Shown here: piece by piece, positions 2,906 through 27,248 of the stretch
How the letters are laid out: each line of letters opens with the position of its first letter
How positions within the stretch are numbered: position 1 is the first letter of the stretch
Origin: a virus
Virus record (IMG/VR): IMGVR_UViG_3300025282_000194
Location: 1 to 27,248 of that record
Reading direction: 5' to 3' (one strand)
Length of the DNA stretch: 27,248 nucleotides
Translations under genes and position numbers: made by a program
Notes under the pieces: generated by a model
Told to the model about the DNA's origin: nothing
What the model saw: only the letters and a program-made list of their open reading frames with translations
Database searches by the model: none

Positions 2906-3394
2906 ATGGCAAACCTAGTTAATGAACAAGAACTGTTCTTTAAGGCATTTGAGCCGAAGATGGCAAATAGATTTATTCTATATGCCGACGGCCTTCCAGC
3001 GTATGTAGTTAAGGGTGTTGCAAGACCGTCATTAACCCAAGATGCAAAGGTTCTTAATCATATCAATGTTCAGCGATACGTTAAGGGCCGTTCTGTGTGG
3101 GGACCAGTTTCAATGACGTTGTTTGATCCAATTGTTCCTTCGTCTTCTCAGTCGGTAATGGAATGGGTTCGACTTCACCACGAAAGTGTAACGGGTAGAG
3201 ATGGATATGCTGATTTCTATAAGAAGGACATAACAATTAATGTATTAGGCCCCGTGGGAGATAAAGTTGAAGAGTGGATTCTTAAAGGATGTATAGTTAC
3301 TCAGGCTACTTTTGGTGAGTTGAGTTTTGATACCGATGATCCGATGCAAGTAGAAGTGACCGTCCAACCAGATCTGTGTATCCTGAATTACTAA
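2906..3394 (+). CDS. 19: tail tube protein, gp19-like
   Basis: The protein has 162 residues, almost exactly the length of T4 gp19 (163). It forms the hexameric rings of the inner tail tube through which DNA passes. The N-terminal part (ANRFILYADGLPAYVVKG, then RPSLTQDAK) and the C-terminal beta strands (GCIVTQATFGELSFDTDDP, then VEVTVQPD) follow the gp19 pattern. A TTGGAGA ribosome binding site precedes the start. It lies directly behind the sheath gene, and the strong terminator at 3431 closes the pair, so sheath and tube appear to form one late transcription unit. Confidence 0.95.
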   Translation: MANLVNEQELFFKAFEPKMANRFILYADGLPAYVVKGVARPSLTQDAKVLNHINVQRYVKGRSVWGPVSMTLFDPIVPSSSQSVMEWVRLHHESVTGRDGYADFYKKDITINVLGPVGDKVEEWILKGCIVTQATFGELSFDTDDPMQVEVTVQPDLCILNY

Positions 3395-4544: not shown

Positions 4545-6938
4545 ATGGCTAATGAGTTTATCGCTCGTAAGGGTCTAATAGCATTAAGTAATTCCGAAGT
4601 TACTGGAAGTTTAGGAATTTCTGGAAGCGTAACGGTCGGGGACGGGTCAAGTATCATTTTCACGGACTCGCTGGTTAATTCTAGCATCTCGTCTGACGAT
4701 GGACGGCTGACCTTCTCGTCAGGGGACAGCGGTGGGGGCCAATCCATAGTCTTCACGGATGTCGTGACCGAAGATAACTATTCGGTATCGAGCGTGCCTT
4801 GGACCTACATGCGGTTCAGTCCAGCCATCTCGATGCAGCCCACAACTAACGCACACACTTGGTCGCTGATGAAGTTGGAGCCCAACGTGAGCGGCAGCGG
4901 GAACACTGGCGACCTGGCTATCTTGGAGATCGCGCCGATCATGACGGCATGGGGCGGCGACGAATATCTGATCAAGGCCGGTACGTCGGTGTCCACCGAT
5001 TTGTTCATGGTGAGCAGCTCGGGTGATCTGACGGTTGCGGGTGATCCCACGTTCAACCTCGGCGGTGTCGGCGGCCGTGCCCTGTTCATCGACGGTGCGG
5101 GCTCTATCCCGTCCTATGACGGCGCGACCGTCGCGGTGTTCCAGAACAATGACGCGCTGGGCCGCGAAGCACGGGTTGTCGTGCTCTCAGGCGCGAGCGG
5201 CGTTGGTACGTTAGCGTTTGGTGACGCCGCCGACGAGGACCGGGGTTGGATGGCGTATGATCAAGGCAACGATGATTTCTCATGGAAGGTCGGGGGCTCG
5301 TCTGATACGATGGTGCTATCGTCGTCGGCGCTTACCCTGTCAGGACACAGCCTCCGAATCGACACAATTGAACTTAACCACGCATCAGCTAATACATTAA
5401 CAGCTTCTAGTGGTGTTCTTAGTATTGAAGGTAATCGTATCTTCCATGCTGGTGGAACTGATATTCCAGTTGCTGATGGTGGTACTGGAGCTTCCACCTT
5501 AACCGACGGCGGAGTTCTACTTGGTAGTGGTACTGGTGCAATAACCGCAATGGCGGTTCTTGCTAACGGTGAGATGATCGTTGGTAACGGCACAACAGAT
5601 CCCGTAGCAGAAAGTGGAGCAACACTGCGAGATTCAATTGGTATTGGTGTAAGCGATTCACTAGAACTTACAGCACTTAATCTTGGGTCGGGAGGTGACA
5701 CAACAATTACCCGAGCATCTGCTGGCGATATCGCTGTTGAAGGTAATCGTATTTTCCGTGTTGGTGGTGCAGACGTTCCGGTCGCTGATGGTGGTACTGG
5801 ACAGTCAAATCTAAATAACTTAATCACGATGGGTACCCACACTACGGGAGATTATGTTGCATCTCTAGTAGCTGGAACGGGTGTCACATTATCAAATAAT
5901 AGTGGAGAAACTGCTACCCCAACTGTTGCAATTGGACAGGCGGTCGCTACAACTTCTACTGTAACATTCGATACTGGATCATTTACAGGTGATGTTACGA
6001 TTATTGGTAACTTACTTGTTCAAGGTGCTACTACACAAATCCAAACATCAGAACTTAAGGTTGAAGATGCATTAATTACCGTTGCTTCGGGCTCTGCAAA
6101 TAGTACAGCCGCTAATGGTGCTGGTATTGAAATTGACATGGGTGGTCAAACCAACCCATCAATGACATGGGCCCATACAACTCAAGAGTTTGATTTCAAT
6201 TATCCAATTAGTAGCAGTCAGTTTACAGGTTCATATTCCGGTGATGGTTCTGGATTAAGTAATATTGTAAGTACATTAACTACTGCTGGCGAAAGTGGTG
6301 GTGGAACTGTTGCTCTTAAGACCCAAACTCTTACGGTTACTGGTGGGGAGGGCATTGATACTGTTGCTAGTAATCAAACAATTACGATTTCTGGTGAAGA
6401 TGCAACTGATTCAAATAAGGGTGTAGCTTCGTTTAATTCAACCAACTTTACTGTATCTTCCGGTGCTGTTACTTCTAATAATATTACTATTAATGGCGCA
6501 ACTGTAACCCTTGGTGGTACTAGAAATGTTACACTAGCACAAATTACAAACGCTGGCGCTACTACTACTGACGTAGTAACGTTTAGTACGGGTGTTGCCG
6601 TTGCTGGTACTAATATCTCTGGATCATCGGTAGTGGTTGCTACGGGTGGTTCTGAAACTACATCGATTATTGCAACAGTTGCTACCGCTTCATACTCAAG
6701 TGCTCAGTTTGATTATTCTGTTGTCGAAGGCGGCGGGCTAGGTATAAGAGCTGGTACTGTTATAGCAGCTTGGAAACCTCTTGCGGGCACGATACAGTTT
6801 ACGGACTTCTCAACCCCAGACATTGGTGACACATCAGATGCTACTTTTACGATGGACGGTTCGCTTGCAAATGCTAGATTAAAATTTACTTCTTCGACCG
6901 GATCGTGGACGGTTAAAGTAGCAACACGAACATTATAA
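4545..6938 (+). CDS. tail fibre protein 1 (797 residues)
   Basis: The N-terminus [12 protein letters not shown] is shared exactly with the next, larger fibre and probably forms the baseplate-binding adapter. Residues about 30-270 are encoded by clearly GC-richer DNA. Residues about 290-425 hold two copies of a [18 protein letters not shown] repeat. Residues about 487-555 are the [20 protein letters not shown] module with an [11 protein letters not shown] continuation, common in marine phage fibres. An [10 protein letters not shown] linker follows near 567. The last 80 residues match the end of the 218-residue protein upstream. No S74 self-cleaving chaperone is visible. The start follows GGAGA. 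Its role is host attachment; the receptor is unknown. Confidence 0.88.
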
Positions 6939-6986: not shown

Positions 6987-9900
6987 ATGGCAAACGAATT
7001 CATAGCCCGCAAAGGGCTAATCTCAGTAAGCGACACTCAACTCACCGGCAGTCTCATCGTATCCGCTTCACAAGGTTCAGGTGTAGATTTATATGTAAGT
7101 GGAAGTGCTACAAAACCAAGAGTCGGCATTGGTATCGAAACTCCCGCAAAAGCCCTAACTGTATTAGGAGATATAAGCGCTAGTGGTAACATAGAAGTAG
7201 ATGGTGGAATTACAGGTAGTGCGATTACTGGAAGTTTTAAAGGAGATGGTGCCGGAATAACAGGCCTATCCTCGGCCGCAGTTAGTAGTTATACAAATTC
7301 TACTAATAATAGAGTAATAACTTCGGTTGATTCAAGTACTATAAATTCTGAAGCTAATTTAACATTTGACGGAAGCAATCTCGCGGTGTTGGCCGGGAAC
7401 GTCAACGTTGCCACTGGGGGCAAGTTAGGAATATTGGGCGGAGTCGCTTGGGTGCCGACAACATCCGGCACCTACATGAACCTTGAAGGCTCAGCGAAGC
7501 TGATGGTCAACGAGACTGCAAACGCCAACATGTCCATCGGCCTCACGATCAACCAGGCCACTTCCGACGACGAGATCCTCGCGTTCAAGAGTTCTGACGT
7601 AGCCCATGGCAGGGTGGGTTACGCCGAGACGGACACGTTTTTTAGCATCAAGAAAGGGAGTGCTGCCTACGGCGGTGTGACGCTTAGAGCACTGGCCGAA
7701 GACGCAGCCATGACGACGCCGCTCACGTTCGTAGCGCACGGTGGGACAGCGAACACGACGAAAAGTGCAGCAGGGCGCGCCCTCATCGAACTCATTGCTG
7801 TGGAGCACGACGGCTCGGACAGTGATGTAAATACCACAGCAGACGGCAACGTCCTCGGCGTCAGCACACGCGTCGGCGGCGATACTTATATGCGCTGGCT
7901 GGTCGATGAGGATGGCGATACTTGGCAGGCTGGCAACGTGGACCTTGATGCCGGCGCTGTCATCAATTTCCACGCTGGCGATGTCACGATCACGCACAGC
8001 GCGAACACATTGACAGTCGCTGGAGCTAGTACCACGGTGCTCAATGGCACGGTCAGTGTTGGAAACAATTTCAGCGTCGCTGGTGATGTGACCGCCGTCT
8101 GGAAAGTGACGAACACCACCCAATCGACCAGCCTTACATCAGGCGCAATACAAACGGCTGGTGGGCTGGGGGTTGCCAAGGATGTGTTTATCGGCGGCGA
8201 CTTCACGCTGTTGAGCGACGCGGGCGTCTTAGGCTTTGGTGCAGATACCGATGTTACCCTGACCCACGTTGCCGATACCGGACTCCTCCTCAATTCCACC
8301 CGCCAGCTTCAATTCAACGATTCAAGTCAGTACATCAGTGGTACGAGTGCTACGGTATTGTCTATCGCAGCCACGGATGAGATTGATCTTACTGCTACCG
8401 CCATAGACATCAACGGCACCGTAAACATTTCGGGGGCCACGGTTCTCGCGACAAGCCTCACTCTGGCTACTGGGGCAACAGTAACGGGAATAGACAATGG
8501 ATCTCTAGGATCTAGTGCGACACTGCTTGCTACGCAGGGCGCAGTTAAAACGTATGTAGATGCCCAGGTTACCGCCCAAGACCTAGATATTACGACTGAC
8601 AGCGGCACAATCGACATTGATCTGGACAGCGAAACGCTGACTATCGCTGGCGGTACGGGTCTGGCCTCTAGTGCGTCGAGCACCACGGTAACGCTGGCTA
8701 TCGACAGCACCGTTGCCACGCTTACGGGATCACAGACGCTAACCAACAAAACAATCACCTCGCCGGACATCAACGCCGGAACAGCCGATGGCCTGACTTC
8801 TCTGACTGTTGGGACTGACGGTAGTGGCGCTGACGTTTACTTCTACTCAGCGACTTCAGGCGACCATCTATTCTGGGACGCTAGTGAAGAGTTGTTGACG
8901 ATCACGGGCACGAACGGCCAGACGGCTCTGAACGTGGCAGATGGAAATGTGACGGTGGCAGACACGCTAACGGCCACGAACATCGGAGCGTTTACTGCTA
9001 CAGGGGCGATAGATTTCGGTTCCCAGAACATGACCAACGTGGATGTCGATTCTGGTACGATAGACGGTGCTACGGTAGGGGCCGCTTCTGCCACTACGGG
9101 AGCTTTCACGACGCTCGCGGCTTCGAGCACCCTCGCTGTCACGGGCGTTTCAACGCTTTCGGACGATGTTAGGATGGCGGCGGGCAAGAAGCTCTATCTC
9201 GGCGGCGAGGATACGAGTCCGTTTATGACGCAGGGCATCACTATCAATTCGGCGGGTGCCGACAATATGGTGATGAGGTTCAACGACACCGTGGATGTCG
9301 CGCACGGTTGCACGACAGCACCGATTGCTCCCCTAGCCTCTTCCCAGACGGACGACTGGGCGATCTTCCAGAAGAACCGAGCAGAGGGCGGGCTGTTGAT
9401 CGCGGGGCTCCAAGAGGACGGGGGCAGCGAGCCGAGCATCCGATTTGAAGGATACGGCGGTCAGGCAGACACAAATAAAAGTGCCAGCGCTCGGGCGTTG
9501 TTTGAGTTCTGGGCCTACGAGCACGACGGCGCGAATGCGCTGACCGCGGTCACCGCGGACGGCAATGTCTTCGCTATCCGCGTCTACGACGGAACACCGG
9601 GAGCTATGCGTACACGGTGGATGGTCGATGAGGACGGTGACACATGGCAGTACGGCGCGATCAAGCTCGAAAACAACAGCGGCCAAATTCTGATGAAGGA
9701 CGCAGGCGGCAACCACCGCGACGTGCTTTACGTCTCGGCGGGCGACGATGTTCAGTTCGGCTCGACCTCGCTCGACAATATGTATTTCAACGTCGGCAGC
9801 CGGTCAGGCGCGATGGTAATATCTGAGACTACCGGCAACGTCACAATCGATCCGGGCGGAATCGCGGTCACGGGCGTGGCAACGATGTCGGACGATATAG

Positions 9901-12041
9901 ACCTTGCATACCAAAAAGGGCTCTACCTCGACGGCGGCGGTGACACTTACATCTCCAGCCCGTCTACGGACACAGTGCGTTTTACAGTAGGTGATACCAC
10001 TCTTCTTCAGATGGGAGAACATGGTGGTGGTGCAAACGATTATGTACAGATTCCAGCCGCGGCCCGTTTCTACCTAGACGGCGGCAACCATACACATTTC
10101 TCCCAAGTGTCTGCGGATCTAGTGCGTTTTGTAGTAGGTGGTAACACTGTTCTTGATATCGGAGAAGGCGGTGGTGGTTTAAATGATTACATAGCGATTC
10201 AAGCCGCAAACAGGTTCTACCTTGACGGCGTTGATAACACATATCTTTCGGAGGCAAGTGCGGACGTAATTAGCCTCACCGCTGGTGGTACTGCGACGCT
10301 GAATATCAATGATGCCGGTGTCGGCATCGGCACGACGGCTCCAAACTCTGGCTCAGTACTTGAACTTAAAAAAACTGCAGTAGGAGCAACTACTGATTTT
10401 GTACAAAAACATGTTCTTGTTACTACTGGTTTTGGTGGGGGCTATGACAATAAAATGGTCAGTTTATTATCCGGCCGGGATGGTACTACTATAAACGCAG
10501 TAGAAATAGGTTATGCATATACTGGTAGCGGTTATGCATTAGGATTCGCAACAAATGATAATACTTCTGGGGAAGTAATTGAAAGAATGAGAATCGACAA
10601 GGATGGCAACGTCGGCATCGGAACGTCGAGCCCAAGTGCTTTGTTAGAAGTATCGAAAACATCTGGTGCTGAAATTAAAGTATTTTGCGATGGTGGGGTT
10701 GCACAATTAACTATGGATGCAGGAGGAGGTTCAAGTGCTGATGCTGTCCTTAGTTTTAAAGATGATGGAACAGAAAAATGGAAAATATTTTATGACGCAA
10801 CCACAGCTGGAGGGACTGAGGCTTTGTATTTCCAAGATGATGGGGATATAAGGATGACATTAACTCAAGCTGGCAGAGTCGGCATCGGAACGACGGCCCC
10901 TGGAAGTGCTTTACATGTTCAAGGAAGTTCATCTCAAACTTTACATTTAGAAAGCACAGGAAATGACCAAGGTGTTTTAATATTAGATGGAGATCGAGCC
11001 GATGCTGATTCCACGTGCGGACAAGTTAGATGGCAGTGGAATAATAATAGGGTTGCACAAATAGCTGGTCATACAGGAGCAGATACTGCTAATAAAGATG
11101 ACGGTGAGTTGGGATTCTATACAGCTGCCAGCTCGGCCGGCGGAGCTGAAGAAAGAATGAGAATAGATTCAGCCGGAAACGTCGGCATCGGCGAGACCGA
11201 TCCCGACACCCTCCTTCATGTGAAGGGAGGTGCAGTCCGTGCAGCGGAAAGTGGCATGACTGCGGTGCTTGAAGGAAGTGTCGGAAGTTCTGGTGCTGCG
11301 GGTTTGAATATTCTGTCCACAAGCACTGGTACGATTGGTTTTGGAGATGCAGGAAATCCAGCTGTCGGAAAGATCACTTATGCTCATGGCGATGATTCTA
11401 TGAGTTTTGGTACGGCTGATAGTACAAAGATGTCGATTTCAAGCGCCGGCCTTGTCACCGTGACCGGCACGGCTAGGATCAACGGACAGGTGGGGCTGAA
11501 CATGGGGACAACGACTTCGATGCTTTCGATGTACATAGCTACGGCGGGTGCTTACGCGGAGACGATCAATCACGCTAGCAGCAACCCGCTCGGCATTCTC
11601 GTTGACTACAGCGCTCACAGCCCGAACGGTACCGGCAACTATTTCTTCGCTGGTACGGACTCGACTACGACCCGCGTAGCCCTTACCTCTGATGGTGGCA
11701 TCTACAACTATTCGGGCAACAACGTAAACCTGTCGGACGAACGGCTGAAGATTATCCACAATTCCACGACATCAAAATGGGACGCCCACGCGTCGCTTGA
11801 GATTTTTGACTACAACTATACTGACAGCCCCGATACGCGGGTGCTAATCGGAGTCGGCGCATCACAGGCAGGAGAGTGCGACGACCGGCTATGCGCCCAC
11901 GATGGATGGGATACCGGCGCCGGGACGTATCACGGCCTCTATAGCACAGACCTTTCGTTCTACACGATGAAAACCGTGCAGGAGTGCCAAGCCCGCATCG
12001 AGGCGCTCGAAGCTAAGATTGCTGCACTTGAGGCCGCTTAA
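6987..12041 (+). CDS. large tail fibre protein 2 with C-terminal S74-type chaperone
   Basis: The protein has 1684 residues and is the largest here. It starts with the shared [12 protein letters not shown] adapter. It then carries TGSFKGDGAGI near residue 76; two diverged copies of a roughly 140-residue module (about 170-315 and 748-890) ending in RW(L/M)VDEDGDTWQ; an LTGSQTLTNKTITSPD element near 580; three 49-residue tandem repeats (979-1125); and four VGIGT/VGIGE repeats between about 1112 and 1402. The last 100 residues begin with LSDERLK (S1583, K1588), the hallmark of the S74 intramolecular chaperone that trimerises fibres and then cuts itself off before the Ser. They end in an IEALEAKIAALEAA coiled coil. 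Composition shifts sharply along the gene. It should be the main host-recognition fibre. Confidence 0.93.
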   Translation: MANEFIARKGLISVSDTQLTGSLIVSASQGSGVDLYVSGSATKPRVGIGIETPAKALTVLGDISASGNIEVDGGITGSAITGSFKGDGAGITGLSSAAVSSYTNSTNNRVITSVDSSTINSEANLTFDGSNLAVLAGNVNVATGGKLGILGGVAWVPTTSGTYMNLEGSAKLMVNETANANMSIGLTINQATSDDEILAFKSSDVAHGRVGYAETDTFFSIKKGSAAYGGVTLRALAEDAAMTTPLTFVAHGGTANTTKSAAGRALIELIAVEHDGSDSDVNTTADGNVLGVSTRVGGDTYMRWLVDEDGDTWQAGNVDLDAGAVINFHAGDVTITHSANTLTVAGASTTVLNGTVSVGNNFSVAGDVTAVWKVTNTTQSTSLTSGAIQTAGGLGVAKDVFIGGDFTLLSDAGVLGFGADTDVTLTHVADTGLLLNSTRQLQFNDSSQYISGTSATVLSIAATDEIDLTATAIDINGTVNISGATVLATSLTLATGATVTGIDNGSLGSSATLLATQGAVKTYVDAQVTAQDLDITTDSGTIDIDLDSETLTIAGGTGLASSASSTTVTLAIDSTVATLTGSQTLTNKTITSPDINAGTADGLTSLTVGTDGSGADVYFYSATSGDHLFWDASEELLTITGTNGQTALNVADGNVTVADTLTATNIGAFTATGAIDFGSQNMTNVDVDSGTIDGATVGAASATTGAFTTLAASSTLAVTGVSTLSDDVRMAAGKKLYLGGEDTSPFMTQGITINSAGADNMVMRFNDTVDVAHGCTTAPIAPLASSQTDDWAIFQKNRAEGGLLIAGLQEDGGSEPSIRFEGYGGQADTNKSASARALFEFWAYEHDGANALTAVTADGNVFAIRVYDGTPGAMRTRWMVDEDGDTWQYGAIKLENNSGQILMKDAGGNHRDVLYVSAGDDVQFGSTSLDNMYFNVGSRSGAMVISETTGNVTIDPGGIAVTGVATMSDDIDLAYQKGLYLDGGGDTYISSPSTDTVRFTVGDTTLLQMGEHGGGANDYVQIPAAARFYLDGGNHTHFSQVSADLVRFVVGGNTVLDIGEGGGGLNDYIAIQAANRFYLDGVDNTYLSEASADVISLTAGGTATLNINDAGVGIGTTAPNSGSVLELKKTAVGATTDFVQKHVLVTTGFGGGYDNKMVSLLSGRDGTTINAVEIGYAYTGSGYALGFATNDNTSGEVIERMRIDKDGNVGIGTSSPSALLEVSKTSGAEIKVFCDGGVAQLTMDAGGGSSADAVLSFKDDGTEKWKIFYDATTAGGTEALYFQDDGDIRMTLTQAGRVGIGTTAPGSALHVQGSSSQTLHLESTGNDQGVLILDGDRADADSTCGQVRWQWNNNRVAQIAGHTGADTANKDDGELGFYTAASSAGGAEERMRIDSAGNVGIGETDPDTLLHVKGGAVRAAESGMTAVLEGSVGSSGAAGLNILSTSTGTIGFGDAGNPAVGKITYAHGDDSMSFGTADSTKMSISSAGLVTVTGTARINGQVGLNMGTTTSMLSMYIATAGAYAETINHASSNPLGILVDYSAHSPNGTGNYFFAGTDSTTTRVALTSDGGIYNYSGNNVNLSDERLKIIHNSTTSKWDAHASLEIFDYNYTDSPDTRVLIGVGASQAGECDDRLCAHDGWDTGAGTYHGLYSTDLSFYTMKTVQECQARIEALEAKIAALEAA
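9921..10361 (+). repeat. three tandem 147-base repeats in fibre 2
   Basis: Units begin at 9921, 10068 and 10215, exactly 147 bases (49 residues) apart. Each starts (L/F)YLDG and continues with a TY/TH..S step, a (V/I)RF or ISL strand and a T.L.(M/I)... turn. The first two also share GEHGGG/GEGGGG and ND(Y)V/I. Each unit probably forms one repeat of a trimeric beta-rich shaft. Confidence 0.8.
10320..11191 (+). repeat. dispersed GTCGGCATCGG repeats encoding VGIG
   Basis: The 11-mer GTCGGCATCGG occurs at 10320, 10611, 10878 and 11181, at intervals of 291, 267 and 303 bases. A one-mismatch copy lies at 7122. Each encodes VGIG followed by a T.AP, TSSP or ETDP turn and an L.V strand, a known fibre repeat. 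The GC-rich cores sit inside AT-rich repeat bodies. Confidence 0.8.
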
Positions 12042-12533: not shown

Positions 12534-12872
12534 ATGGCTAAGAATACAGCTAATGGCGAATCACAAACTGAAAGTACTTTCCCACCGGAGCCCGTAGTGC
12601 TTCCGCCCGATCCGATGGTCGCGGCGGCTACGGACCAACCACAACAGCAGCAGTTTACTGTGGTGGATGAGCGGCCTCTTCCAAAGGCTCTTTCTGTTCT
12701 TATTGCTAATTCGAACACAACTCTTCAAGACACTCAACGGCGGCTTATGACAGATATTAACGATTCTGCTAGTGAACTTATGGGCATGTTAGAGATTCCT
12801 CAAGAGGAAGGGTGGCTTTTGGATGTCGAAGGTCAGCGCTTTGTCAGGGTGGAACCAGCTCAAGCTCAGTAG
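12534..12872 (+). CDS. 112-residue protein, Pro/Gln-rich, unknown function
   Basis: The first 45 or so residues are disordered in character, with Pro-rich (PPEPVVLPPDP) and Gln-rich (QPQQQQF) stretches. The rest is a likely helical part (LPKALSVLIANSNTTLQDTQ to LMGMLEIP) ending in GWLLDVEGQRFVRVEP. It begins after a strong AGGAGG site under promoter P2. The helicase start lies two bases past its stop, so the two are probably translationally linked. The Pro/Gln part is encoded by a GC-rich patch (12585-12650). I recognise no function. Confidence 0.75.
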   Translation: MAKNTANGESQTESTFPPEPVVLPPDPMVAAATDQPQQQQFTVVDERPLPKALSVLIANSNTTLQDTQRRLMTDINDSASELMGMLEIPQEEGWLLDVEGQRFVRVEPAQAQ

Positions 12873-12874
12873 GA

Positions 12875-14731
12875 ATGATACATGATTCTGCCGAATCGGT
12901 TGTTTTCCCGTTCGGCAAATACAAGGGATATACCCTTGCTCATGTAATCAGAGAACATCCACATTATACTTACTGGATAAGAGATAATGCCGACTTCTCT
13001 CCTCTTTGGAGAGAAGCGGTTTCTCTTGCGCTCCAAAATCGTGATATCGGTCATTTAAATCTACCTCATGTAAAAACAACTCAAAAATTTGGTAAGCAAA
13101 AAAAGACGGTAGAAATATCAGAAGTCAATAAGACTACTGCTAAAATTGATATGCCGTATGATAAATCTTTAATTGAACAGTTTAAGTTTGAGATTGATGG
13201 TCGCAAATGGAACGATAAAGAGAAACACTGGCAATTTCCAATTGTTCAACTTCCAAAAGTAGTTTCTATTATAAAAAATTATGAGGTTAAATGTACTCGT
13301 AAAATTAAGAAAATTTATAAAGAACTTTTAGAAGAAACTAAAATCCGACATGAGGTTCGTGAGAAGGAAGATACGGACTTTGAAATTCCAGAATTAAATT
13401 TACCTTTATTTAATTTTCAACGTGTCGGTGTAGAGTTCGTATATCATACAGGTGGTAGAGCATTAATTGCTGATCAGCCAGGATTGGGTAAAACTATTCA
13501 AGCAATTGCGTATGCTCGATTGATGAATTTTAAAACTTTGGTCATTTCTCCACTATCTGTGGTACTTAATTGGAGGAAAGAAGTTCAGAAGTTTACTAAT
13601 TTAGATTCTACAATTTGGTCTACTAAAGATGTAGACGGTGATTTAGATAATCAATTTCATATTATAAATTATGATGCAGTTAGAAAAGTCCATGATGTTT
13701 TAGCTAAAATGGATTTTGATTTATTGGTGTGTGACGAAGCTACTTTTCTGAAAAATCGTAATACCTTACGGTTTAAATCTATCCTTGGTTCGTGGAGAGA
13801 GAGAAAACAATACCCTGGAATCAAAACAGATCACATTATTTTCTTAACTGGAACTCCGGTTATGTCTAGGCCCATAGAAGCGTTTACACTTCTTAATGTA
13901 TTGGACAGAAATCGCTTTAGTAATTTCTATCATTTCACTCAACGGTATGGTGGGTGGAAAGGTATGCCGGTTAGAAATCTAAAAGAACTTCATGAACGAA
14001 CTAAAGACCTAACCATACGTCGAAAGAAATCGGAGGTCTTGCCAGAACTCCCAGATAAACAAAAAAATGATTTATATATTGATATGGGATTTTCAGAACG
14101 AAAAGAGTATAAAAACATTCTAGATGAGATTTTTGGTGAGTGGCGTTTTTCTGGAAAACCATCTGTGGCGTCTATGCCAAAGATTCAATCGTATTTAACT
14201 GATCAAAAAATTCCAAGACTTAAAGAGGTCATTGATGAGTATTTGGATAACGACAGATCTATTTTAGTATTTGGTTGTTTTGTCGATCCTCTAAAAAGAT
14301 TAGCCGAACATTATGGATATGATGCCGCTCTATTTTACGGTGGAATGAACAAAAAACGACGACAAGAAGCAGTAGATCGGTTAGTGAGTGGGGAGGCTAA
14401 GGTTGGGTTCTTTTCGCTTAAAGCAGCAGGTATGGGGATTGACGGTCTACAATCCGTAATGGACACTGTGATATTTATTGACAGGGATTGGGTTCCTGCT
14501 AATCACGAACAAGCAGAAGATCGAATCCATAGAATTGGTCAAGATAAGAAGGTCCAGATTTATTATATGACGGTCGAAAATACCATTGATGTGTATATGA
14601 GTGAGTTGATTAATGAGAAACAACAGATTGCATCACAGATAATAGATGGAGAGATTATAAATACAGTTAATACAAAATCTATCTTTAGTGATTTTGTGAA
14701 GAAATTAGCTTGGGAAAAAATTAAAGTATGA
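12875..14731 (+). CDS. SNF2-family DNA helicase/translocase, HARP-like
   Basis: From the ATG at 12875 the protein has 618 residues. A longer GTG reading from 12812 would lie inside the upstream gene and adds nothing conserved. The N-terminus has a PFGKYKG..L..V motif of the DUF3820/exonuclease-X C-terminal type. Residues about 85-140 (DGRKWNDKEKHWQFP) resemble the HARP domain of SMARCAL1-like annealing helicases. The ATPase core has Walker A DQPGLGKT (200-207), a DEAT motif II (287-290, where DEAH is usual), FLTGTP motif III, and the C-terminal lobe with ED.IHRIGQ (HRIGQ at 552-556). It should move on branched DNA in repair or recombination-dependent replication, comparable in role to T4 UvsW. 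The start has only an AGGA almost touching it, so coupling to the previous gene is likely. Confidence 0.92.
   Translation: MIHDSAESVVFPFGKYKGYTLAHVIREHPHYTYWIRDNADFSPLWREAVSLALQNRDIGHLNLPHVKTTQKFGKQKKTVEISEVNKTTAKIDMPYDKSLIEQFKFEIDGRKWNDKEKHWQFPIVQLPKVVSIIKNYEVKCTRKIKKIYKELLEETKIRHEVREKEDTDFEIPELNLPLFNFQRVGVEFVYHTGGRALIADQPGLGKTIQAIAYARLMNFKTLVISPLSVVLNWRKEVQKFTNLDSTIWSTKDVDGDLDNQFHIINYDAVRKVHDVLAKMDFDLLVCDEATFLKNRNTLRFKSILGSWRERKQYPGIKTDHIIFLTGTPVMSRPIEAFTLLNVLDRNRFSNFYHFTQRYGGWKGMPVRNLKELHERTKDLTIRRKKSEVLPELPDKQKNDLYIDMGFSERKEYKNILDEIFGEWRFSGKPSVASMPKIQSYLTDQKIPRLKEVIDEYLDNDRSILVFGCFVDPLKRLAEHYGYDAALFYGGMNKKRRQEAVDRLVSGEAKVGFFSLKAAGMGIDGLQSVMDTVIFIDRDWVPANHEQAEDRIHRIGQDKKVQIYYMTVENTIDVYMSELINEKQQIASQIIDGEIINTVNTKSIFSDFVKKLAWEKIKV
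14654..14661 (+). promoter_or_regulatory. possible T4-type late promoter (TATAAATA)
   Basis: This is the only exact plus-strand TATAAATA I found. It lies at the end of the helicase gene, 112 bases before the hub-assembly gene, and could start the late baseplate operon. A single eight-base match in AT-rich coding DNA is expected by chance, so confidence is low. Confidence 0.3.
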
Positions 14732-14773: not shown

Positions 14774-15538
14774 ATGAGTGAGTTAATGTACCCCGTAGAA
14801 ATTATTAACCTTCCTAGTGAGGGAAGATATTATCCAGAGGGACATCCGTTAAGGAAAACTAGTGGTCAGTTGGAAGTGAAGTATATGACTGCTAAAGAAG
14901 AAGACATTTTAACAAGTACTAACTTGATAGCAAATGGAACGGTTATTGATAAGTTATTGGAAAGTTTAATAGTCCACGAAGGTGTAAAACCTGTTGATTT
15001 AACTACAGGCGATGTTAATGCTGTTTTACTTGCTGCTAGAGTTTTAGCTTATGGTAAGAATTATGATGTAAACTTTCAATGTGAAGAGTGTGAAGAAAGT
15101 GTTGCTGTTTCGATAGATCTAACTCAGTTGGAAAGCCCGACAGAGTTGGTTGATGCAGATGAGGATGGATATCATCAGTTTACTACTGACAGTGGATTGG
15201 ACATTGTTATTAGAACATTAAGTCGTGGTGATGAATTGAAAGTAGAAAAAGATAATAAAATAGTAGATACTAAATATAATAAAAGGGGTTCTTCTGAAAT
15301 TACATCTAGATTGAGAAAAATTATTGTTTCTATTGATGGTGAAACAGATAAAAATGTTTTAAATACTATGATAGATAATTTGATTGTTAAGGATTCTAGA
15401 AAAGTTAGAGAAGAACTTGGTAAAATTAATCCAACTATTGATATGATGATAGAATTTACTTGTGATGGTTGTGGTCATACTATGAAAGGAGGAATGCCCA
15501 TTGGGGTAGACTTTTTTTGGCCTGACATCGAAATATAA
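14774..15538 (+). CDS. baseplate hub assembly protein of the T4 gp26/gp28 type (zero frame)
   Basis: The protein has 254 residues. It begins with the family's typical INLPSEGRYYPEGHPL and KYMTAKEED elements. It holds two CxxC pairs, C103/C106 (CEEC) and C230/C233 (CDGC), which probably bind one zinc ion. The family (T4_baseplate in Pfam, from memory) acts in hub assembly in T4-like phages and is not well understood; it lies next to the tape measure here. The start follows AAGGAG. The zero frame stops at 15536-15538, shortly after the run of seven T at 15512-15518. A +1 (or -2) shift there would replace the last six residues with a 65-residue extension (see the next entries). Confidence 0.87.
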   Translation: MSELMYPVEIINLPSEGRYYPEGHPLRKTSGQLEVKYMTAKEEDILTSTNLIANGTVIDKLLESLIVHEGVKPVDLTTGDVNAVLLAARVLAYGKNYDVNFQCEECEESVAVSIDLTQLESPTELVDADEDGYHQFTTDSGLDIVIRTLSRGDELKVEKDNKIVDTKYNKRGSSEITSRLRKIIVSIDGETDKNVLNTMIDNLIVKDSRKVREELGKINPTIDMMIEFTCDGCGHTMKGGMPIGVDFFWPDIEI

Positions 15539-15716
15539 ATTAGAACTTCATGATTTACTGGTTACACTTTGTATGAATGTAGAAGGTGGTTTCTCTTATG
15601 AATCTTGGTATAAGATGCCAGTTCATTTGAGAACCTATTACATTGACGTTATTCAAAAGAAAACAGAAGAACACACAAAAAGATTACAATCTTCTATGCC
15701 CAAAGGGATTAAATAA
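15510..15716 (+). CDS. frameshift extension of the hub-assembly gene, or separate small ORF
   Basis: In the +1 frame an ORF of 68 sense codons opens immediately after a TAG at 15507-15509 and ends at TAA 15714-15716, which overlaps the tape-measure ATG as TAATG. Its product looks genuine along its length (KYKLELHDLLVTL, GGFSYESWYKMPVHLRTYY, then a Lys/Glu-rich helix ending PKGIK). The first ATG (15573) comes 21 codons in, has no purine-rich ribosome site, and would discard the conserved-looking KLELHDLLVTL part. The simplest reading is expression by frameshifting from the upstream gene. Alternatives are a standalone 47-residue protein, or a homopolymer sequencing error that splits a single gene. 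Confidence 0.7.
   Translation, partial: TFFGLTSKYKLELHDLLVTLCMNVEGGFSYESWYKMPVHLRTYYIDVIQKKTEEHTKRLQSSMPKGIK
15512..15518 (+). promoter_or_regulatory. candidate slippery T7 run for programmed frameshifting
   Basis: Seven T residues read TTT TTT TGG in the zero frame. The run lies three bases after the last in-frame stop of the +1 frame and 17 bases before the zero-frame stop, so the shift window is very narrow. An AAAGGAGG at 15485-15492 could act as an upstream ribosome-binding stimulator, though its 19-base distance is longer than in known cases. Confidence 0.5.
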
Positions 15717-17416
15717 TGGCGAACACTCCAGAAGAAGCTCTACAACAATTAGGCGCGACGATGCAGGCTGCTGTAACTGCTGGAATACAGCCGTTGATGG
15801 ATCAGAATCGCGATTTTCGCAGGGCCCAAGGCTCGGCCGCTAAATCTTCTTCTTCGTCTGATAAGCAGTACAATAAACAGCAAGCTGGACTTCTTAAATC
15901 GATAGTTCAAAATATTTCATTACCCCTCCCCGGCGGCGCCAGACTTTTTGGACTTAGTTCTTTTATGGACAAAGTTGGCCAAACCAGTGCGCTATTTCAA
16001 AAGGGTCAAGAGTCAATCAAAGCTTGGACGGCTTGGGAAGCAAAGGGTAGGCAAGAAGCTCAAGATGCTTGGGATAAACTGAACGAAGATCAACAAAAGG
16101 ACTCGCCTGGCCTAGATCCTGCAGAAATTGGAGCCAAGAAGGAAAAGGCTAAAAATGACGCGATGACTGAGGGTACGATGAAGACGCGGACACTTACTGC
16201 GGGGATCACCGCGGCCGCCACCGCTATGGTATTGCTGACAGAAGGATTGAGAGCTTTAGGTAAATCTTTAGGGGGTGTAAGTGAAGGACAGGCCTTGGCT
16301 CAGGTGGGTGGATCGATTGTTGAATCGTTCCAGACCTTACTTAGCGAAGGGAAGTGGTTGAATCCACAACAAGTACTTAAAATGCAGGGAGCAGTTGGTC
16401 AAGAATTTGGTCAATTACTTACATCTGACGCTGCTGCAGGAATGGCTAAAGTGGCTACAGACTTTGGTGTTACTACGGGACAGATGGCAAAATTGGAAAG
16501 AACCTTCCAAGCTACTGCAATGGATTCCCGAACAGCTTTAGCATCATTTGCAAGAGTAGGAATTCTTGGACAAACTGCTGCAACAGAATTGGCTACTAAT
16601 GCTGCTGCAGTAGCAAGGGCTGGAGACAATTTTAATGAATTTATCGTTGAAGGTATTAAAAATGCTAAAAAGCTTGGTTTAGAATTTAGCAAGATGGAGA
16701 GTACATTAACAGGCTTCACTATGGACTTTGAGGGAACCGTAAGTGGATTTTCAGAATTAAGAGCGGTTATCCCAGGAATGGCCACAGATTTTGGACAATT
16801 GTTGTCCACAGCTCTGACCGGAACTACAGATGAATATGTTGATCAAATTAGATCGTCATTGTTGGGAGCAGGAATTTCTAGTGCTTCGCAGATGAATCGT
16901 CAACAGGCTGCTTTGTTAGAAAAAGCAACTGGATTCTCTGCGGACCAAATAGATAGAATATTAAAAGGCGAAGATCTTAATGCTGATGTGCAAACAGATC
17001 TTGATACGAAAAGAAATTGGTTATTGGTAGCTCAGCTGGGTATGTTGGGTGGAATCTTAGGAGCAACTATATCGTCTTGGCAAGCTATTTGGAAAGGTGC
17101 TGGTGCAGCACTTACCGGAGCCGCAGTAGGTGCAGGTGCTTTGGCGATTGTTGGCGGTACCGCAACTGCCCTTAATGACGCATACATTACCAAAGAAGGT
17201 GTAACTCAACGGTTTAGTAACGATGACAACATACTCCTGTCCAAGAGTGGTCTTGGTGGTGGTAGAGCTGCTCAAATGGATAGACTGGAAATGAAAAAAC
17301 AAACTCAGGCTATTGAAAGGCTTGCACGGGTCATGTCTGGTCCACAAGAGATTAATTTGAAAAACTGGAGACAAGCTGAACGTTCAGCAATGGACGCTTC
17401 TATAAGGGAGGCTTAA
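15716..17416 (+). CDS. 29: tail tape-measure protein, gp29-like
   Basis: The protein has 566 residues, close to T4 gp29 (590), so a tail of roughly T4 length is expected. It is largely helical. The N-terminus is Ala/Gln-rich with a basic Ser patch (AAKSSSSSDKQ, about 42-51). There is a short hydrophobic helix near 163-180 (TAGITAAATAMVLLTEGL) and a strongly hydrophobic Gly/Ala-rich segment at about 436-490, as tape measures have for pore formation during DNA entry. The C-terminus carries LLSKSGLGGGRA and a Lys/Arg-rich helix. The ATG overlaps the stop of the preceding frameshift ORF (TAATG), and its own stop overlaps the next start the same way. The family is assigned from size, composition and position. 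Confidence 0.8.
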   Translation: MANTPEEALQQLGATMQAAVTAGIQPLMDQNRDFRRAQGSAAKSSSSSDKQYNKQQAGLLKSIVQNISLPLPGGARLFGLSSFMDKVGQTSALFQKGQESIKAWTAWEAKGRQEAQDAWDKLNEDQQKDSPGLDPAEIGAKKEKAKNDAMTEGTMKTRTLTAGITAAATAMVLLTEGLRALGKSLGGVSEGQALAQVGGSIVESFQTLLSEGKWLNPQQVLKMQGAVGQEFGQLLTSDAAAGMAKVATDFGVTTGQMAKLERTFQATAMDSRTALASFARVGILGQTAATELATNAAAVARAGDNFNEFIVEGIKNAKKLGLEFSKMESTLTGFTMDFEGTVSGFSELRAVIPGMATDFGQLLSTALTGTTDEYVDQIRSSLLGAGISSASQMNRQQAALLEKATGFSADQIDRILKGEDLNADVQTDLDTKRNWLLVAQLGMLGGILGATISSWQAIWKGAGAALTGAAVGAGALAIVGGTATALNDAYITKEGVTQRFSNDDNILLSKSGLGGGRAAQMDRLEMKKQTQAIERLARVMSGPQEINLKNWRQAERSAMDASIREA

Positions 17417-22728: not shown

Positions 22729-23121
22729 ATGTCATTTTTTGTTATTATACCAGATAATCCGTTAACGGAACAACAGATTACACAAGCTCATAGACAACAG
22801 GGATATGTTCCACGATATTTTGCTGCGAAAGCAAATCATATAAATCAAGAAGTATTTGAAATTACTCGTAGAGATTATGACAGGCTTTATAGTAATCAAT
22901 ATGTTATATTGGGCCATTTGAATTGGGTTATTAAGGGACGATTAGAAGATCAAATTATTCATTTGTATACCGGCAATCCTACATATGAGGGGGGAAAGGA
23001 ACCAATTAATATCCCAGGCGTCTTGACACAGAACGCGGGAGCTGTTAGATTCCTTAGTAGGAAAATGCCAGTGGTCAAAAATCACTTGATCAATTATGAA
23101 CAGTTTTATATCGGAAATTAA
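22729..23121 (+). CDS. unknown protein of the baseplate operon (130 residues)
   Basis: The start chosen is the ATG two bases after the hub-like gene; a longer reading from 22615 would run inside that gene. The product begins MSFFVIIPDNPLTEQQI and has HRQQGYVPRYFAAKAN, a LGHLNWVIKGRL strand and a C-terminus FLSRKMPVVKNHL ending YEQFYIGN. It has no Cys, signal peptide or membrane segment. No clear ribosome site precedes it, so translation probably depends on the upstream gene. Its own stop overlaps the PolA-like gene start (TAATG). A virion role is inferred from position only. Confidence 0.7.
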   Translation: MSFFVIIPDNPLTEQQITQAHRQQGYVPRYFAAKANHINQEVFEITRRDYDRLYSNQYVILGHLNWVIKGRLEDQIIHLYTGNPTYEGGKEPINIPGVLTQNAGAVRFLSRKMPVVKNHLINYEQFYIGN

Positions 23122-24398
23122 TGCAATTTTTAACAGGTTATGATTTACAAACAATCCTAAATTCTGACGAACCAAAAGTTTGTTTGTATTTACTTTCAGA
23201 TCCAGAGATACATCCTCTCTTGAACTCTTTGTCTTGCATCTATATTAAGACCCAAGATGGAGAGTTTTATTCTTCGTTTACTCACGTTGACTATCCCCAT
23301 CAAAATTATCAAGATTTGGTTTTACGAAATGCTTTTGTATATGATATAAAGCAATTGTTACACTTGGGTGTGGATGTACAAGATTGTTTTGACTTAAAGT
23401 ATTTTGATAACAAAGAAGTTTACAACCAACTTTCTACTTTTTATTCTATGCGACTGAAACAAATTTCTAATTTGAATTCGGTCATTCCTATCTATTCCCA
23501 TTTGAATACATTTCAACGGATTGGTCAATCATTAGATGTTGCTTTGTTAGCGGATAAGAAAAAAGCTTTTAATCAAAAGTATTTAAATGTATATCACAAT
23601 ATTACTCCTTATGTGTTTTCTAAAATAGAATCTGAGGGATTGTTTGTTGACCACGATACCTTTTTGAATTCGTTTGGATTGGAGAGGCGTAATTTAATTA
23701 ATGATGATAGAGTTTTAACTAACTATAATCATTACACCACCACAGGCAGACCCAGTAACGCATATGGTGGAATCAATTATGCTGCTCTCAATAAGGCTGA
23801 TGATTCTAGAACCTCGTTTGTTTCTAGACATGAGAATGGTAAGTTAGTAAATATAGACTTTAAAGGTTATCATTTATATTTGGTTGCTGAACAAATTGGT
23901 ATAGAGCTTCCAGATGATCCACATAGAATGTTTGGCCAAGAATATTTTAAAACAACAGAATTAACGCCAGAACAATATAAGGAATCAAAAAGAATAACTT
24001 TTACAAAGTTATATGGATATGAGTCGGAAATTAAAGAAGATATTTTATTTTTTAATAAGGTTCGGAAATCTATTAGACGCCAGGTGTGGTCGGAGTATCT
24101 GAGAAAAAATAAGTTAGTTACGAAATATGGTAATGAGATTGAAGTAGAAGAAGCTACAAGCAATAAGGTATTTAATTATTACATTCAAAGCTTAGAGACA
24201 GAAACAAATATTATGTATTTGTACAATCTTATAAAACAAAACATAGTTCCGATTCTTTATACTTATGATTCAATGCTTTTTGATGTAGAGGAAGCTAAAA
24301 TTGATAATTTAATTAATATTTTACGGGATGTATTGAAACATCCGTTTTCAATTTCCATTGGTGACAACCTGAAAAATATGAAATTTGAACATTTTTAA
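23121..24398 (+). CDS. small divergent family-A DNA polymerase-like protein
   Basis: The protein has 425 residues. From about residue 160 it follows the Pol I polymerase domain: SKIESEGLFVD (thumb-base 'ME..G..vD'), TTTGRPSN with R210 (compare TATGRLSS), motif A IDFKGYH with D246, motif B/O-helix KRITFTKLYG with K290, F294, Y298 and G299 at the spacing of E. coli K758, F762, Y766 and G767, and motif C YTYDSMLF with D383. The E of motif A (E710) is H251, and HDE of motif C is YDS. The first 150 residues resemble a degenerate 3'-5' exonuclease (AFVYDIKQLLHLGVDVQDCFDL). It is far shorter than Pol I, with little space for the fingers. Both catalytic Asp are kept, so activity is possible. It is coupled to a baseplate-operon gene by TAATG. 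Confidence 0.8.
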   Translation: MQFLTGYDLQTILNSDEPKVCLYLLSDPEIHPLLNSLSCIYIKTQDGEFYSSFTHVDYPHQNYQDLVLRNAFVYDIKQLLHLGVDVQDCFDLKYFDNKEVYNQLSTFYSMRLKQISNLNSVIPIYSHLNTFQRIGQSLDVALLADKKKAFNQKYLNVYHNITPYVFSKIESEGLFVDHDTFLNSFGLERRNLINDDRVLTNYNHYTTTGRPSNAYGGINYAALNKADDSRTSFVSRHENGKLVNIDFKGYHLYLVAEQIGIELPDDPHRMFGQEYFKTTELTPEQYKESKRITFTKLYGYESEIKEDILFFNKVRKSIRRQVWSEYLRKNKLVTKYGNEIEVEEATSNKVFNYYIQSLETETNIMYLYNLIKQNIVPILYTYDSMLFDVEEAKIDNLINILRDVLKHPFSISIGDNLKNMKFEHF

Positions 24399-25589: not shown

Positions 25590-26360
25590 ATGGCTCTTGA
25601 CATTAACGCACTTCGTGCCAAGTTAAACACTTTTCAGGGACAAACTAAGCGGTCATCCGCTTTTTGGAGGCCGGCTGAAGGCAAGTCCCTAGTAAGGATT
25701 GTTCCGTTAACGGACTGTCCCGAAAACCCTTTCATTGAACTCTATTTCCATTATCTTGGAAACCGGAGTCACCTAAGCCCAATTTCCAACGGCAATCGTG
25801 ATCCGATTGCAGAATTCGCTGAGAACCTTCGTTCTGAAGGAACTCGCGATGCCTATCAACAGGCTCGTGCTTTTATGCCCAAACTTCGTACCTTCGTTCC
25901 AGTAGTGGTTCGTGGTGAAGAAGACATGGGTGTACGTTTTTACTCGTTTGGTAAGACTGTTTATCAAGCACTTCTTACTTATATTAACGATCCTGACTAT
26001 GGTGATATTACTCATATCGAAACAGGACGGGATATCGTAGTGGATTATACTCCACAGGAGAAGAGTGATACGAACTTCGCGAAGACGACGATTTTGGTGA
26101 AGCCGAATCAGACTCCAATTTCAAAGGATGCTGAGTTGGTCGAACGTTGGACAACCAATCAACCAAATCTTACTACTCTTTTTAAAGAGCCTTCTTATGA
26201 AGAGTTGTCTGTTGTTCTAAAACGTTATCTTGATCCTAATTCTGCTGATGAAGATACTAGTGTAACTGAAACGATGGTTACACCTGCTACAGTACAGGAT
26301 TCGTCTAGTGATACGGTTAAGTCAGCAGTAGATGAGTTTGAGTCCCTATTTGCAGAATAG
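25590..26360 (+). CDS. 32: single-stranded DNA-binding protein, gp32-like
   Basis: The protein has 256 residues (T4 gp32 has 301). It coats single-stranded DNA and recruits replication and recombination proteins. The N-terminus (LNTFQGQTKRSSAFWRP) suits the cooperative, basic part. The core follows with GKSLVRIVP, LYFHYLGN, FVPVVVRGEEDMGVRFYSFGK and YTPQEKSDTNFAKT. The C-terminus is acidic and ends in DEFESLFAE, as gp32 tails do. Where T4 has the CPVC zinc site, this protein has LSPIS (62-66), so the zinc ligands are absent. Promoter P3 and a strong AAGGAG precede it; the recombinase starts 11 bases after its stop. Confidence 0.9.
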   Translation: MALDINALRAKLNTFQGQTKRSSAFWRPAEGKSLVRIVPLTDCPENPFIELYFHYLGNRSHLSPISNGNRDPIAEFAENLRSEGTRDAYQQARAFMPKLRTFVPVVVRGEEDMGVRFYSFGKTVYQALLTYINDPDYGDITHIETGRDIVVDYTPQEKSDTNFAKTTILVKPNQTPISKDAELVERWTTNQPNLTTLFKEPSYEELSVVLKRYLDPNSADEDTSVTETMVTPATVQDSSSDTVKSAVDEFESLFAE

Positions 26361-26371
26361 GGAGCTAGCTC

Positions 26372-27248
26372 ATGGCTGTCAAAAAGAAAATAAAGACGCC
26401 AGATCGTGATGAGATGGCGCAAATTATTGCTGATAGTTTAAATTCTTTGATATCTGATGAAGATAAAGTTGCATTTTTCTTAGACGGCTATGACGAGACT
26501 CCAATTGATTTAGACGATTGGGTATCCACAGGAGCCACCATGCTTGATTTGGCGATTTCAAATCGTTCGCATGGTGGTTTGCCTGTGGGTAGGATAGTAG
26601 AAATTACAGGACTAGAACAGTCAGGTAAGAGTTTACTAGCCGCACACGTTATAGCTAATACTCAAAAGAGAGGCGGTATTGGTGTTATCATTGATACCGA
26701 ATCTTCTGTGCATGATGATTTCTATCGTGCTATTGGTCTTGATATGTCCAAGTTGGTTTATGTTCATGCTGAAGCAATAGAAGATGTCTTTGATATGATT
26801 ACCAATATCATTGAGAAGGTCAGAAAAACAGAGAAGGATAAGATTGTTACTATTGTAGTAGATTCTGTTTCCGCTGCTTCGACTAAGAGTGAAATAGAAT
26901 CTAAGTTTACTAAGGATGGTTATGCAACTGATAAGGCAATCATTTTAAGTAAGGCTATGAGAAAGGTTACGAATATGTTAGCCAAGCAACGTATTCTATT
27001 AATCTTCACCAATCAGTTAAGACAGAAGATGAATGCAATGCCTTTCGCAGATCAGTATACTACGTCTGGAGGAATGTCACTTCGATTTCATTCATCAGTT
27101 CGTTTGAGATTGAAGATGGTTTCAAAGATAAAAAATTCTTCGAACGATGTTATTGGAGTATCTGTTAAAGCAATTGTAATGAAGAATCGTTGTGGTCCGC
27201 CGCTTCGCGAAGCTATTTTTGATATTTACTTTGATCGTGGTATTGACG
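26372..27248 (+). CDS. RecA-family recombinase (uvsX position), 3' end outside the window
   Basis: At least 292 residues are visible, open to the window edge. They include a Lys-rich N-terminus, STGATMLDLAI, GGLPVGRIVEITG and Walker A GLEQSGKS (80-87). Further on are IIDTES, the Walker B strand TIVVDSVSAAS, the loop-2 region IFTNQLRQKM...TTSGG, and KNRCGPPLREAIFDIYFDRGID, matching the RecA 'KNK..PPF..AEFDI..G.GI' end. It catalyses strand exchange on DNA coated by the gp32 protein encoded just upstream. Its motifs are nearer bacterial RecA (GPESSGKT, TTTGGNALKF) than T4 UvsX (GPSKSFKS), although it occupies the T4 uvsX role. GGAG at 26361-26364 is the ribosome site. Confidence 0.93.
   Translation, partial: MAVKKKIKTPDRDEMAQIIADSLNSLISDEDKVAFFLDGYDETPIDLDDWVSTGATMLDLAISNRSHGGLPVGRIVEITGLEQSGKSLLAAHVIANTQKRGGIGVIIDTESSVHDDFYRAIGLDMSKLVYVHAEAIEDVFDMITNIIEKVRKTEKDKIVTIVVDSVSAASTKSEIESKFTKDGYATDKAIILSKAMRKVTNMLAKQRILLIFTNQLRQKMNAMPFADQYTTSGGMSLRFHSSVRLRLKMVSKIKNSSNDVIGVSVKAIVMKNRCGPPLREAIFDIYFDRGID

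Follow-up and report, generated by a model that had tools for sequence, protein, structure and literature searches.

A probable programmed +1 frameshift joining a T4 gp26-type protein to a conserved C-terminal extension

Just before the tape measure gene, the phages lambda (gpG/gpGT), P2 (E/E'), HK97, and Mu encode a short protein and a frameshifted long one; the shift is -1 in lambda and P2 and -2 in Mu, and in systems of the lambda gpG/gpGT type it takes place near the 3' end of the first open reading frame (ORF). A 2016 review names T4 as the exception to tail-chaperone frameshifting, and describes the tail chaperone of the haloarchaeal myovirus HSTV-2 as very likely +1 (PMC5009743). A review of T4 counts gp26 and gp51 among the hub assembly chaperones (PMC3004832). 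According to PMC10885494, Vladimirov et al. (2022, Virology 566:9-15) identified tail assembly chaperones in T4-like phages and reported that some of these phages have both a short gene and a longer, fused one; PMC12846349 cites the same study for poly-T signals that direct -1 shifting in such genes. The gene pair of T4 and the -1 signals of T4-like chaperone genes have been reported before; a +1 form in T4-like chaperones is mentioned nowhere in the literature searched, in which Vladimirov et al. (2022) is represented through the papers that cite it. The original prediction for the locus considered here took such a frameshift to be undescribed in T4-type phages, which agrees with the literature searched for the +1 form and is wrong for T4-like chaperones and -1 signals in general.

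Two other +1 shifts serve for comparison. In prfB, the gene for release factor 2, the ribosome shifts at CUU_UGA with an internal Shine-Dalgarno sequence 3 nt upstream, and influenza PA-X is produced by a shift at UUU_CGU. In a 70S system, designed hairpins next to the E site stimulate +1 and attenuate -1 shifting, and the E-site hairpin has been proposed as a mimic of the internal Shine-Dalgarno duplex (PMC6321510).

The overlap and its extension

The window, the whole stretch of DNA analyzed here, comes from a marine virus of bacteria and is 27,248 nucleotides long (IMG/VR record IMGVR_UViG_3300025282_000194). On its plus strand a gene for a 254-residue protein, the proposed short (G-like) tail assembly chaperone, runs from an ATG at 14774 to a TAA at 15536-15538. 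The protein is a member of PF12322 (T4_baseplate, the gp26/gp51 family; E 2.2e-18, 67.2 bits, curated cut-off 24.5) and also matches the PHROG baseplate hub family phrog_150 (E 5e-21); its place in PF12322 sets it apart from the first proteins of lambda, P2, HK97, and Mu. Near its 3' end the zero frame reads GAC TTT TTT TGG CCT GAC ATC GAA ATA TAA, crossing a run of exactly seven T (15512-15518), the candidate slip site TTT TTT T(GG). The +1 frame opens after a TAG (15507-15509) and closes with a TAA (15714-15716) that overlaps the ATG (15716) of the next ORF (566 residues, 15716-17416). The extension itself (15519-15716, 65 codons and the TAA) would form the C-terminal part of a long product of 313 residues through a +1 shift, or 314 through a -2 shift. 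The +1 frame has its first ATG at 15573, with no Shine-Dalgarno sequence in the 20 nt that precede it (ATTTACTGGTTACACTTTGT). The frames, the stop codons, the first ATG, and both product lengths were re-derived from the sequence and agree exactly with the original prediction.

Inside the zero frame, 15485-15496 (AAAGGAGGAATG) combines a good Shine-Dalgarno sequence, AGGAGG, with an ATG (15494) 14 codons before the stop; this candidate internal start was rejected, as it is not conserved in most relatives.

The protein-like character first noticed by reading the extension is borne out by its pattern of substitution. The median dN/dS in the extension frame is 0.093 over 2000 pairs of +1 extensions, pN/pS in the other frames exceeds 1, and between the window and one relative (L002) dN is 0.34 and dS 1.44; by these measures the extension is a protein-coding sequence under purifying selection. 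Its consensus among relatives is FFGLxPEYKxxIHxxIFQLIxHxKGGFxFxxxYNMPIxLRxFYLKRL, and three helices are predicted (pLDDT 73-88) in a model of the fused form based on alignment A5, from which, its N-terminal part being poor, the extension helices alone were used. A comparison of the extension with Pfam and PHROGs gave no reliable match, and because it matches no annotated domain family, most genome annotations overlook the long product.

Such a sequence could be a small gene in its own right, with a start codon of its own or read by ribosomes that reinitiate after terminating at the zero-frame stop. A small separate ORF is annotated in the records of cyanophages and of Microcystis phage Mel-JY01, and in two relatives (L351 and L357) the stop is closely followed by an ATG. 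In most +1 relatives, however, the conserved stretch of the extension is not preceded by a start codon, and any start falls downstream of the conserved residues FFGL. The slip motif also keeps its codon phase relative to the zero frame, and for this locus we regard a separate gene as improbable. Several relatives in the set made non-redundant at 80% have an extension without any ATG, GTG, or TTG, and in many others its first ATG is codon 62-64 of about 70; since start codons are absent or near its end, fusion is the simplest route to translating the extension.

The slip site and the probable direction of the shift

A scan of viral contigs yielded a first set of 80 relatives, nearly all with 39-71% protein identity, and 76 of these keep TTTTTTTGG in the same codon phase (TTT TTT TGG). 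In a DNA alignment of 16 sequences with a mean column identity of 70%, TTTTTTTGGCC forms an invariant 11-nt block. Elsewhere in the first-set genes 83% of Phe codons are TTT, so codon bias contributes to conservation of the T run, but TTTTTTTGGCC is invariant over 16 divergent sequences; the first Phe codon is TTT in 43 of 44 cases, against a background of 0.75. A shorter contig with the same T7 (L001), 99.97% identical to the window over 8,762 bases (8.8 kb), may come from a near-identical phage and was therefore left out as independent evidence. One relative (L073) keeps the extension but has no clear slip site. The overlap is also kept in the complete genomes of Mel-JY01 (T7GG), Flavobacterium phage immuto (TTT CTT TGG), Streptococcus phage GXN1 (TTC TTT CGT), and Listeria phage LIS04 (TTT TTT AGT).

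A wider survey, queried with cyanophage, Flavobacterium, Pseudomonas, and Listeria phage sequences, covered 163 loci in which a stop codon was present; every one has an overlapping extension, in four cases truncated by the end of the contig. In Flavobacterium-type contigs the extension is in the +1 frame, with TTT TTT TGG, TTT CTT TGG, or TTT CTA TGG as the usual sites; cyanophage-type contigs use the -1 frame at T_TTT_TTC (U_UUU_UUC). The last contig set was fetched after these rules had been formed, and in 168 of its 170 held-out loci the extension lies in the +1 frame and the overlap contains a YTT|Y codon. Homologues with a separate gene, which the original prediction had set against its own reading, number two in this set (L351 and L357, around 2200): in both, the extension is an overlapping ORF that begins at an ATG of its own shortly after the stop, and fusion is therefore not obligatory in the family. 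These two extension ORFs have a longer N-terminus and fall outside the usual +1 relation. Nine held-out loci were at first classed as -1, that frame happening to be longer; the eight of them in the non-redundant set, when read, comprised six +1 loci with T7GG and the two separate-ORF exceptions. The slip motif, the frame relation, and the extension, mostly without a usable start, persist in the sequences of more than 300 relatives, counted as loci rather than independent phages, with a few contigs recurring between scans; the sets made non-redundant at 80% comprise 66 and 88 loci.

The direction of the shift is indicated by relatives in which the T run is broken. Five variant sites, TTT CTT TGG, TTT CTA TGG, TTT TTA TGG, TTC TTT CGT, and TTT CTA TTC, have the same frame relation; in all five a P-site tRNA on UUU or CUU can re-pair one base forward, cognate -2 re-pairing is not possible, and there is no run of seven T. 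The slip codon may be either the first or the second before TGG: three relatives (L012, L186, and L208) break the second and two (L084 and L342) break the first. The class of -1 slippery heptamers (X XXY YYZ), found in other lineages of the family, does not describe the window, in which the extension lies in the +1 frame. The site instead belongs with the YUU_U slip codons of prfB and PA-X, as UUU_U here and CUU_U in relatives, some of which have the UUU_CGU of PA-X itself.

The original prediction had offered a -2 slip beside the +1 slip. A ribosome moving back two bases on the T run, as in phage Mu (PMC5009743), would reach the same frame and add one extra Phe to give the 314-residue product, and T7 does permit re-pairing two bases back. 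The +1 shift is nevertheless clearly favored, because variant sites such as TTT CTA TGG and TTC TTT CGT keep the frame relation with no cognate -2 pairing to be had, and because a hairpin by the E site, of the kind described below, is reported to make +1 slips more frequent and -1 slips less so (PMC6321510); we give the -2 slip a small chance. Slippage of the RNA polymerase is less probable still. Messages with six or nine U would enter the extension frame without a ribosomal shift, and most relatives do have the homopolymer of seven, but those with the variants TTTCTTTGG, TTTCTATGG, TTTTTATGG, and TTCTTTCGT preserve the +1 relation and the overlap without such a run, and the hairpin signal is positioned relative to the slip codon. 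A one-base sequencing or assembly error in a single 313-residue gene, the caveat attached to the original prediction on the ground that homopolymers are error-prone, is excluded because the same T7 and overlap occur in hundreds of independent contigs and in complete genomes such as Mel-JY01, and because the extension evolves as a protein, mostly without a usable start; an arrangement repeated in hundreds of relatives is therefore a selected feature. These sequence comparisons lend good support to a conserved, programmed +1 shift that joins the gp26-type protein to the extension, as originally proposed.

A predicted hairpin 5' of the slip site

In the window a hairpin is predicted at 15495-15508 (TGCCC-ATTG-GGGTA), with its 3' end 3 nt before the T run, and is proposed as a stimulator of the +1 shift. 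Hairpins were assessed by comparing the 30 nt before the slip codon with synonymous-codon shuffles that preserve the protein. This null was chosen over fixed-register covariation because the hairpin arms slide between lineages, and it kept the amino acids because many short forms carry V-T...V-T before the site, residues whose codons are self-complementary. The window hairpin has a z of -1.76; the 80 nt downstream of the T run in the window show no structure (z +0.40).

Across 48 non-redundant +1 loci the mean z is -1.74, against -0.08 in control windows of the same genes (Wilcoxon P 7e-10, a value that, like the other P-value for hairpins, ignores shared descent). For ten +1 lineages with similarity below 62%, z is -1.54 at the site and stays within -0.40 to +0.41 in windows further upstream, and the 3' end of the hairpin is mostly 0-4 nt from the slip codon, with a mode of 3. 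At 14 -1 loci there is no hairpin signal (-0.38 vs. -0.35 in controls). The signal is weaker in the held-out set than in the 48 loci, with a mean z of -1.00 vs. -0.19 over 80 loci (P 8e-6); 37 of these 80 have z below -1, and part of the +1 loci have no hairpin. That the hairpin is more stable than shuffles at many +1 loci is a new observation.

The in vitro 70S precedent (PMC6321510) makes a role for the hairpin plausible, and by analogy with it the hairpin probably raises the shift rate in many +1 phages, including this one. As in prfB, a duplex would abut the E site on its 5' side. The duplex here, however, is an mRNA hairpin rather than a helix between Shine-Dalgarno and anti-Shine-Dalgarno sequences, and the A-site codon is usually UGG rather than a stop. 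The internal Shine-Dalgarno sequence of prfB, 3 nt upstream of the slip site, has no counterpart in the window, where the hairpin arm GGGTA holds that position and AGGAGG (15487-15492) is 19 nt away. Tentatively, and at somewhat less than even odds, we suggest a natural, widespread class of +1 signals in which a hairpin refolding against the E site replaces the internal Shine-Dalgarno sequence of prfB and sets the tail-chaperone ratio, in a family where -1 slippage or gene duplication takes this part in other lineages. The 5' hairpin would then match, in nature, an element that has been studied by means of designed hairpins (PMC6321510).

The proposed chaperone role and other lineages of the family

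The two products are most likely short and long tail assembly chaperones of the lambda G/GT type, an analogy that the original prediction had drawn and that position, comparison with T4 gp51, and, weakly, fold all favor. As in G/GT-type systems, an overlapping extension in another frame stands near the 3' end of the first ORF and is conserved together with the slip site. An AF2 model of the short form (pLDDT 89) has as its closest PDB match the HK97 tail assembly chaperone 2OB9, a weak match (Z 4.4; runner-up Z 2.5) that spans 91 of 104 residues at 7% sequence identity and, weak alone, points toward a chaperone; the profile of the short form found no match among PDB sequences. The 566-residue product of the next ORF has no family match. 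It has a homologue in one relative (L002), and the ORF at this position is annotated as tape measure in immuto and LIS04, the latter matching tape-measure PHROGs; from its position and these annotated relatives we propose the next ORF as the tape measure gene.

Most ribosomes would read the gp26-type gene to its stop and produce the short form. A minority, with tRNA-Phe in the P site on UUU UUU UGG and the next codon read slowly, would slip by +1 and enter the extension frame, producing the long form with its 65-residue helical tail, and the hairpin, which mostly ends 0-4 nt from the slip codon, would re-form in the wake of the ribosome and make this shift more frequent. By analogy with lambda gpG/gpGT, the tape measure protein would be covered by many copies of the short form and few of the long one, whose tail would bring in subunits of the tail tube protein, encoded here at 2906-3394. 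Taken as a whole, the encoding of a short and a long tail assembly chaperone through a +1 shift is the best explanation of the locus, with a probability of roughly 0.86; the chaperone role is likely. HSTV-2 resembles the locus in its +1 shift in a myovirus tail chaperone and differs in its archaeal host.

T4 gp26 and gp51 match PF12322 over their first 206 and 201 residues, respectively, and gp51 is 48 residues longer at the C-terminus, so that it corresponds to a gp26-type protein with a C-terminal tail. In T4 the two are separate genes on opposite strands, whereas the fragmentary window holds one copy with a frameshift, and a second copy may lie outside it. The -1 extension of cyanophages is homologous to the gp51 tail (hhalign probability 97.7, E 2e-12). 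The +1 extension shows weak similarity in the same register to the gp51 tail (P 0.002; direct hhalign is also weak) and to the cyanophage extension (P 4e-4). The overlap design recurs in cyanophage-type and jumbo phages with chaperones of this family and in Pakpunavirus Adele (PMC12846349), but there the shift is -1, and the -1 loci surveyed have no 5' hairpin signal. T4 would thus make its short and long chaperones from two genes, other lineages would make them through -1 or +1 shifts, and a few would split the tail off. The gp26 family holds +1, -1, two-gene, and separate-ORF solutions, and these four form a natural series for how a product ratio persists while the mechanism changes. Two relatives of the +1 group (L016, with 43% identity to the window protein, and L048) use the -1 frame at A_AAT_TTC without a T run; the direction of the shift has therefore changed within a fairly narrow group.

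Elsewhere in the window, the gene directly upstream of the chaperone gene (12812-14731) encodes an SNF2-type helicase (PF00176, E 5e-29; phrog_62, E 1e-100). Two large ORFs, 4545-6938 (797 residues) and 6987-12041 (1684 residues), have a common N-terminus (...LTGSL), as if duplicated, and the end of the longer one (SDERLK...) resembles, on reading of the sequence, a putative S74-type intramolecular chaperone. Judged by eye, 23121-24398 encodes a putative DNA polymerase fragment, 25590-26360 a putative gp32-type single-strand binding protein, and 26372-27247 a putative UvsX/RecA-type protein.
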